Below are positions 1 to 1,222 of a stretch of DNA of 61,193 nucleotides, piece after piece. The stretch is from Lachnospiraceae bacterium (GTDB lineage Bacteria; Bacillota; Clostridia; Lachnospirales; Lachnospiraceae), in the NCBI GenBank assembly GCA_022510525.1, contig JAFLTH010000007.1, positions 1-61,193 of the forward strand, read 5' to 3'. The position numbers and the translations under genes were made by a program. The notes beneath the pieces were generated by a model. The model saw nothing but the letters and a program-made list of their open reading frames with translations, ran no database searches and had not been told where the DNA came from. The first letter of the stretch is position 1; every line of letters starts with the position of its first letter.

Positions 1-53
1 CTGTCTGTCTGTCTGTCTGTCTGTCTGTCTGTCTGTCTGTCTGTCTGTCTGTC
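1..53. repeat. (CTGT)n tetranucleotide tract in hsdS
   Basis: Thirteen perfect CTGT units plus one base, starting at the first base of the window, so the true length is unknown. On the minus strand the tract is (ACAG)n inside the 3' part of hsdS and encodes a Thr-Asp-Arg-Gln repeat. Because 4 and 3 are coprime, all three frames of the tract encode the same cyclic TDRQ peptide with no stop, so gain or loss of one unit changes only the frame of what lies beyond. This is the normal architecture of a slipped-strand phase-variation switch. The window may begin here because assembly broke at the repeat. Confidence 0.97.
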
Positions 54-1222
54 AAAATTGTGTTACCAGATTCAATAAATGTCAAGATAAGATCGCGATA
101 ATATTCATATTGTTTCTTGCGCGCTTCAATTTCTATAGGAAGGGCAATATTCAAATCAGAGCAAATTGCTTCAAAATTATCTAATGTGTTTGCAATACGC
201 TCTTGAACTTTTATTGGTGGTACAGGAACAGATAATTTCTTTATCTGACTAGCAGTAATAAGTGGTTGTCCTCCCCCTTTTGCATAACGATTTAAATTAG
301 TATTCATTAATAAATGGTAGAAATATCTAAATGAGTAATTCTCCTTCAAATCTATAATAATTGTATTATCTGAAACATCGTACTTTCCATCAGCCGTATT
401 AACAAATCCTGCATTAGCACCGACACGAGCTACTAGAATTTGTGGCTTATCATAAACATAATTTGATGTATTTCCAATAATTCCTGTAGAACCATATACC
501 GGATATTTCCCATTTAGTGATTTATCCTTATTCTTACCTGAAAAAATGTTATAAGTAACATCTTCCATAGGCAAATACTTAGTTTCCTCTTTAGGAAAGC
601 TTAACAGTTGATTTCTATAATATCCATACTGTTGCATTCTTGCTTCAAGTTCTTCTTTAAGTTTCTCTACAAGCTCTGCTTCAAGTTCCGTAAAATTGTC
701 CAAAATACGGACAATTTCACTTTGAACTTCAAGCGGTGGAACAGGAATCCGTACTTCGTTCAGTTTGTCCGGTGTCACTTCTATAACTTTTGTCCCATGG
801 GCAATCTTCTTTTTTTGTTTATAAAACATCGAAGAATGTAAATAATATACCAAATACTTAGGATTTTGATTATGATGGATAATCGCAGTGTGTCCACTGA
901 CCGCCACTTGCTCTTCCCCAAGCCATGCAATACATTTGCAAACATCATCCATGTTCTCACTGGTTACAGCCATAATTATATCATTAGTTAAAGCCATTTT
1001 CTGCTTTTTGGACTTTTCTTCACTTATAAAACTTATCGTTTCATTAACGAATAAATTATAATATGTATAAATCTGACCATAATGTATACAGGATACACCT
1101 TGTTCAACATAGTCTTTTTTTTGGAAATTGCCTCCACGAGAAATAGAAGCAATTTCACCGAGTTTCTTATATTCAACCCCATCCGGGCAATACTCTTTTA
1201 TCAACTTATCAAGTTTACTCAT
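1..1222 (-). CDS. hsdS: Type I restriction-modification specificity subunit HsdS (3' end off window)
   Basis: I translated the minus strand from the ATG at 1222 and found it open for 407 codons to the window edge. HsdS chooses the DNA target for the HsdM methylase and HsdR nuclease. Two target-recognition halves are visible, each ending in the conserved helical element: VPPLEVQSEIVRILDNF near residue 165 and VPPIKVQERIANTLDNF near residue 340, each followed by a QYxYYR motif. After the second helix, from about residue 390, the protein becomes a TDRQ repeat encoded by the tetranucleotide tract. The start has a good AAGGAG site and overlaps the stop of the upstream gene (ATGA), so translation is coupled. 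The C-terminus or a downstream fusion partner is outside the window. Confidence 0.93.
   Translation of the reverse strand, partial: MSKLDKLIKEYCPDGVEYKKLGEIASISRGGNFQKKDYVEQGVSCIHYGQIYTYYNLFVNETISFISEEKSKKQKMALTNDIIMAVTSENMDDVCKCIAWLGEEQVAVSGHTAIIHHNQNPKYLVYYLHSSMFYKQKKKIAHGTKVIEVTPDKLNEVRIPVPPLEVQSEIVRILDNFTELEAELVEKLKEELEARMQQYGYYRNQLLSFPKEETKYLPMEDVTYNIFSGKNKDKSLNGKYPVYGSTGIIGNTSNYVYDKPQILVARVGANAGFVNTADGKYDVSDNTIIIDLKENYSFRYFYHLLMNTNLNRYAKGGGQPLITASQIKKLSVPVPPIKVQERIANTLDNFEAICSDLNIALPIEIEARKKQYEYYRDLILTFIESGNTILTDRQTDRQTDRQTDRQT

Follow-up and report, generated by a model that had tools for sequence, protein, structure and literature searches.

A tetranucleotide tract at the 3' end of a Type I hsdS gene in this Lachnospiraceae bacterium is probably a slipped-strand phase-variation switch, in which fusion across the tract decides between an HsdS with two recognition domains (TRDs) and an HsdS with three. 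The window, i.e. the whole stretch of DNA that we analysed, is an entire contig of 61,193 bp (G000:C157), and it starts within the perfect tract. The analysis shows the anatomy of the gene, the conservation of the junction behind the tract, the distribution of reading frames over it, the length polymorphism of relatives and the purifying selection on the third TRD.

The 53-bp (CTGT)n array is the top-scoring tandem array of the window in a tandem-repeat scan, and its 16-mer has 10 matches in the window compared to 0 in 100 dinucleotide-preserving shuffles. The hsdS gene that runs into it (Table 1) encodes two Pfam Methylase_S stretches, the second at residues 231-367, and its structure model agrees with complete HsdS folds, having two TRDs and two conserved helices. 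Among solved structures, its best sequence match is the EcoR124 specificity subunit, and its central conserved region (CR1) contains a degenerate 12-bp repeat (637-688, 66% matches) that resembles the TAEL repeats of relatives. The initial annotation had placed a TDRQ-coding tract at the end of hsdS, right after the last conserved helix, and this placement is correct: the C-terminal order is ...QYEYYRDLILTF-IESGNTIL-TDRQ..., with the TDRQ run beginning a few residues past the second conserved region (CR2). The repeat lies in the reading frame of hsdS, and its 4-bp unit is not a multiple of 3. A unit of such a length gives identical codons in every frame automatically, and the earlier remark that all three frames read TDRQ is therefore true but automatic. 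Stop-free units are also common (204 of 252 non-homopolymer tetranucleotides; 69-81% of all 4-, 5- and 7-mers), so that a stop-free tract unit is weak evidence.

Table 1. Features at the tract end of the window.
Feature	Position	Strand	Basis or remark
Tetranucleotide slippage tract (CTGT on +, ACAG on the coding strand)	1..53	-	13.25 perfect copies; contig end cuts the tract
hsdS, 407 aa readable, TRD1-CR1-TRD2-CR2 with TDRQ tail	2..1222	-	Pfam, predicted fold; open at the contig end
CR2, second conserved helix	71..223	-	Model; directly precedes the pre-tract residues and the tract
TRD2, about residues 211-333 (approximate limits)	224..592	-	Pfam Methylase_S 231-367 and structure model
CR1, central conserved helix	593..742	-	Structure model
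TRD1, about residues 15-160 (approximate limits)	743..1180	-	Pfam Methylase_S and structure model
267-aa ORF between hsdM and hsdS	1219..2022	-	No family or solved-structure match
hsdM	2019..3587	-	TIGR00497, 724 bits (cut-off 243); N6_Mtase and HsdM_N

Elsewhere in the genome, the repeat occurs once, close to an end of contig C152. Of this copy 59 bp are readable, and one frame behind it continues as VIKLLQYVFGFAYVTMEDIAEN..., a third TRD that brings a conserved region of its own; this frame ends at L009:741 and contains a Methylase_S domain (E 1.8e-27). The remaining two frames stop immediately (TDRQ-stop) or two residues on (TDSN-stop). The initial annotation had proposed that slippage controls fusion to a downstream partner or C-terminal stability rather than simple on/off expression. 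The fusion part is well supported by this side of the tract, where one frame stays open through a TRD-CR module and two stop. The partner in question is a third TRD, and no effect on C-terminal stability has to be assumed. An hsdR gene follows the third TRD-CR at 756-3983 of L009, with the domains HSDR_N, SWI2_SNF2 and EcoR124_C. Homologues of hsdM, hsdS and hsdR of a Type I system are all present, here on two contigs, and the operon order would be hsdM, 267-aa ORF, hsdS, tract, TRD3 and hsdR, the assembler having presumably broken the operon at the tract. The set of hsdM, hsdS, junction and hsdR lies on one contig in several loci of relatives, e.g. L044, L067, L091 and L106. The resemblance to EcoR124-like (Type IC) systems is one of sequence similarity only, namely the best solved match of hsdS and the EcoR124_C domain of hsdR. 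The start of hsdM is the ATG at 3587, and the listed ORF opens upstream with a GTG at 3644. Relatives of the 267-aa ORF were present in just two of the loci checked, L071 (37%) and L100 (32%). A second genome, G009, also has an assembly that breaks at the tract (contigs C64 and C78): on one contig hsdS runs into the tract at the contig end (L013), and on another the tract lies near the start and is followed by the linker.

We propose the following mechanism. With the tract in frame, a single HsdS of about 600-640 aa with three TRDs would be made, and its third module behind the tract would consist of a short conserved linker, TRD3 and a third conserved region (CR3). In the other two frames, translation would stop just past the tract and leave a normal two-TRD HsdS with a repeat tail, and the gain or loss of a unit would toggle the two-TRD and three-TRD forms. 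In the long form, CR3 would compete with or replace CR2 as the partner of CR1, and TRD1 would work with TRD3 instead of, or besides, TRD2. The exchange of CR3 for CR2 is suggested by the alignment end points of one model (pTM 0.60), and one structure row (8zek_A, 214-395) aligns to TRD2 with CR2, which argues against it. Switching would likely change the DNA specificity of the HsdM/HsdR enzyme. We infer that switching is reversible in living cells, that both forms are active and that the strain of the window behaves like its relatives. To a more far-reaching version we give slightly less than an even chance: that the switch recurs in gut bacteria and both of its phases are active enzymes, with the TRD3-CR module displacing TRD2-CR2 from CR1, and that a single locus thus alternates between two bipartite methylomes, TRD1+TRD2 and TRD1+TRD3, with no site-specific recombination.

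We searched a species genome collection for relatives with a degenerate DNA pattern that was derived from the linker IKL(I/L)QYVFG and excludes the repeat itself. The pattern gave 70 stretches, 66 of which match hsdS; the others (L051, L063, L066 and L093) had no hsdS match, were taken as chance matches and were dropped before the counts. Among the 66 hsdS-linker loci, 55 carry a tract of 20 bp or longer, with units of 4 bp in 41, 5 bp in 8, 2 bp in 4 and 7 bp in 2, and none of these 55 tracts has a unit length that is a multiple of 3. Ten repeat motifs occur at the junction: ACAG in 37 loci, and AG, AGAGC, AACAG, AAGC, AATGC, AGCC, AACG and two 7-mers in one to four loci each. An assembly artefact or a neutral microsatellite could be suspected where a contig ends within the tract, as in the window, but this is barely credible with ten motifs at the same junction in 55 loci, and the loci include records that bear no metagenome-bin label (e.g. 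L067, L076, L091, L092, L098 and L106). By record title, the carriers are gut and rumen bacteria, mainly Lachnospiraceae and other Clostridia including Faecalibacterium, and also Gemmiger. The arrangement also occurs in Phascolarctobacterium, Ruminobacter, Treponema, Fibrobacter and Absicoccus (L053, L073, L074, L077, L090 and L098) and in Criibacterium, and this range of titles suggests horizontal spread of the arrangement. Its prevalence in the family is modest, with a shortened form of the linker present in 4 of 150 genomes, own genome counted. On viral contigs, the linker pattern gave 6 stretches, of which five have a tract of the ACAG type and one has a tract of 7-bp units. Some of them look like copies of loci already in the set: L133 shares a 47-bp 7-mer tract with L098, and the values of L132 equal those of L042. 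Comparison with a library of viral folds yielded no useful result.

In 43 of the 66 loci, the sequence allowed us to follow the frame from CR2 into TRD3. The 23 loci left out are 19 in which the contig stops short of CR2, L064, where part of TRD2 is seemingly lost, L072, which has an N before the tract, and L059 and L079, whose pre-junction sequence is not hsdS; L109 was assigned its frame manually, on the basis of a few upstream codons. Behind long tracts (n=36), TRD3 is in frame in 10 loci, shifted by one in 15 and shifted by two in 11, which does not differ from equal thirds (p 0.56). Behind short, degenerate or absent tracts (n=7), it is in frame in five (L048, L062, L065, L071 and L077, the last without a tract) and out of frame in L058 and L100, and in L100 TRD3 itself is cut short. 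The in-frame share differs between the two classes with a Fisher p of 0.04 on small numbers. A tract that slips freely and now and then becomes locked in the fused form would give this pattern, again on small numbers; the short out-of-frame tracts of L058 and L100 and the non-hsdS sequence before the junction in L059 and L079 are points against a switch. A strict CR3 motif missed full-length TRD3 ORFs (e.g. L047, L057, L058, L098 and L107), and its count of 63 of 79 was not used.

These frames also bear on an ordinary on/off switch, in which the third TRD would spoil HsdS and the in-frame state would be OFF for the whole system. The canonical HsdS has two TRDs, and the three-TRD model matches whole HsdS folds only at rmsd 21-27, as such a switch would lead one to expect. 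We nevertheless consider it unlikely, given that five of the seven short or absent tracts keep TRD3 in frame, that TRD3 and linker are under purifying selection (below) and that JHP1422, an S subunit with three TRDs, is described as active in the quoted part of its source (PMC3936762).

The tract lengths of relatives, which the initial annotation had proposed to count, are not constant, and the occurrence of the tract in all three frames together with one allele that has seven tract lengths adds to the case for a slippage-controlled fusion. With differing lengths and one open frame behind the tract, neither of the outcomes that the initial annotation named as refuting was observed. In the Faecalibacterium hattorii isolate APC922/41-1 (L092), the tract consists of 16 GAGCA units and leaves TRD3 out of frame, and the product ends in SRAEQSTD. 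Its TRD1-TRD2 stretch, compared without the first five residues, is unchanged in 30 proteins among the 240 matches listed. At least 7 of these 30 have the same TRD3 (identity 1.00, rounded) behind tracts of 8, 13, 18, 23, 28, 30 and 33 residues, the protein with the 30-residue tract (P0127) being irregular. The seven same-allele lengths, from Faecalibacterium, are all in frame, and L092 is out of frame. Most length variants come from assembled metagenomes, and the variation is seen in relatives of the window strain. The L092-type TRD1-TRD2 is also joined to other TRD3s, so the slot behind the tract may be an exchangeable cassette site.

Among the 120 matches listed of 7999, 102 proteins have 582-641 aa and 18 have 384-425 aa, and most of the longer proteins carry TDRQ, SRAEQ, TEQNR or NGTER repeats before the linker. 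The in-frame proteins contain three Methylase_S stretches, i.e. the third TRD is fused in relatives, and they differ in length by whole repeat units. In EcoR124, TAEL repeats tune spacer length, and length differences of whole units are what one would see if the repeat here merely tuned a spacer in the same way. Such a role is very improbable, as units of 3n bp would be expected, which none of the 55 tracts has, and 26 of the 36 long tracts are out of frame. TRD pairs that share a family at an identity of at least 60% number 396 between positions 1 and 3, 35 between positions 2 and 3 and 13 between positions 1 and 2, counts that were not used as evidence, since similarity to two queries had determined which proteins were sampled. 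A mixed alignment of two-TRD and three-TRD proteins (A2) was set aside, as some two-TRD rows seemed to have their last TRD-CR aligned with the TRD3-CR3 columns, and alignment A3 was used in its place.

Returning to the fusion switch, we compared TRD3 between loci according to their frames. The dN/dS of TRD3 is 0.05-0.12 for pairs in which both members are out of frame (6 with estimable dS, 251 pairs overall) and 0.05 and 0.07 for the pairs in which both are in frame (n=2). For L071 and L081, a closer pair of which the former is in frame and the latter out of frame, dN is 0.027 and dS is 0.26. The viral stretches L128-L132 were included in this comparison (L130 was lost by length), and L133 was excluded. 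At the level of sequence comparison, TRD3 and linker are kept under purifying selection, with the dS of the out-of-frame pairs (1.0-3.7) near saturation. None of the 66 loci has a Shine-Dalgarno-like site with an ATG among the initial 45 codons of the TRD3 frame, compared to 17 of 300 stretches in hsdR; with any start codon allowed, such a site is present in 7 of 66 loci compared to 53 of 300 hsdR stretches. An internal translation start for TRD3 was judged the weaker explanation, and the start-site scan indicates that TRD3 is probably translated only as a fusion, yet kept intact.

The distance to hsdR varies among the loci. The hsdR start lies at most 60 bp from the TRD3 stop in 32 of 58 loci, including the window's, an arrangement in which out-of-frame stops might uncouple hsdR translation, and the tract would switch restriction while methylation stays on. 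We regard this as improbable, since 23 of the 58 loci have hsdR at a distance of more than 300 bp and such a switch has no need for a conserved linker and TRD3. Coupling to hsdR is not a general explanation because of these 23 loci; it is possible in loci like that of the window.

Recombination between hsdS genes is a known source of variation in Type I specificity. The window system resembles EcoR124-like systems in its hsdM, hsdS and hsdR families and in the TAEL repeats in the CR1 of relatives, and differs from them in the extra TRD-CR module behind a slippage tract. Simple sequence repeats are present in 7.9% of the hsdS genes in REBASE, according to the Atack 2020 survey as quoted in PMC7394358 and PMC9577141. 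In NgoAV of Neisseria gonorrhoeae, a G tract in hsdS gives a truncated or a fused, full-length HsdS, as these two sources describe it, so that slippage decides between a truncated and a fused specificity protein as proposed here. In contrast to our system, the poly-G tract of NgoAV, by the same descriptions, splits one two-TRD HsdS into halves, whereas the ACAG tract lies behind CR2 in an HsdS that is already complete, the fusion would bring in a third TRD, and the units of relatives are 2-7 bp rather than poly-G. The three-TRD S subunit JHP1422 of Helicobacter pylori methylates two motifs according to the quoted part of PMC3936762; like the proposed long form here it has three TRDs in one S subunit, the third of which here sits on C152, across the tract break. 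Its TRD2 and TRD3 are identical, unlike our case, and the quoted part mentions no slippage tract before the third TRD. In the quoted accounts of the H. pylori Type IIG enzymes JHP1272 and HP1353-HP1354, a second repeat likewise adds a recognition domain by slippage and alters specificity, but these are single-chain Type IIG enzymes with a homopolymer tract and a small extra domain. TRD movement and a three-TRD gene have also been reported in Mycoplasma, in the part of PMC3077401 that was available. The Atack 2020 genes share repeats in hsdS with our system; a third-TRD architecture is not mentioned in what is quoted of that survey, and it may already include members. Literature titles and abstract openings described no slippage tract before a third TRD in a search that lay outside the Atack 2020 survey. 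Repeats in hsdS and a three-TRD S subunit are already known, and the slippage-gated third TRD appears new, with the reserve that Atack 2020 may hold members.

If the fusion switch is real, a microsatellite that adds a third recognition domain would be a simple further way to diversify the methylome and the phage barrier, and the breaks of assemblies at such loci would be accounted for. What the third TRD does can be tested directly with natural alleles that share their flanks.

Searching for the repeat alone, we found a (CAGA)n tract of at least 23 bp anywhere in 36 of 299 genomes, and 9 of 30 (CAGA)n loci fetched, one per genome, are hsdS; a tract of at least 19 bp is present in 12 of 60 genomes of the genus. 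The (CAGA)n tract may be a general phase-variation device in Lachnospiraceae. In L011, L018, L021, L019, L025 and L030, the same tract is located at the start of other genes or shortly upstream of it. In L011 and L021 the gene is an ORF resembling adenylate-forming enzymes, with which a short ORF upstream is out of frame in L011 and in frame in L021; the tract lies beside a signal-peptide protein in L019 and L025 and at an acyltransferase-like ORF in L030, all named by eye from the translations. Elsewhere in the window, positions 4651-5460 encode an acetyltransferase-like protein (PHROG 1758, E 6e-40) with a small ORF just upstream, and by layout the two could be a toxin-antitoxin pair. The array with the second-highest score in the window is an 18-bp tandem repeat of 3.5 copies at 43162-43224, inside a minus-strand ORF at 41925-43391.
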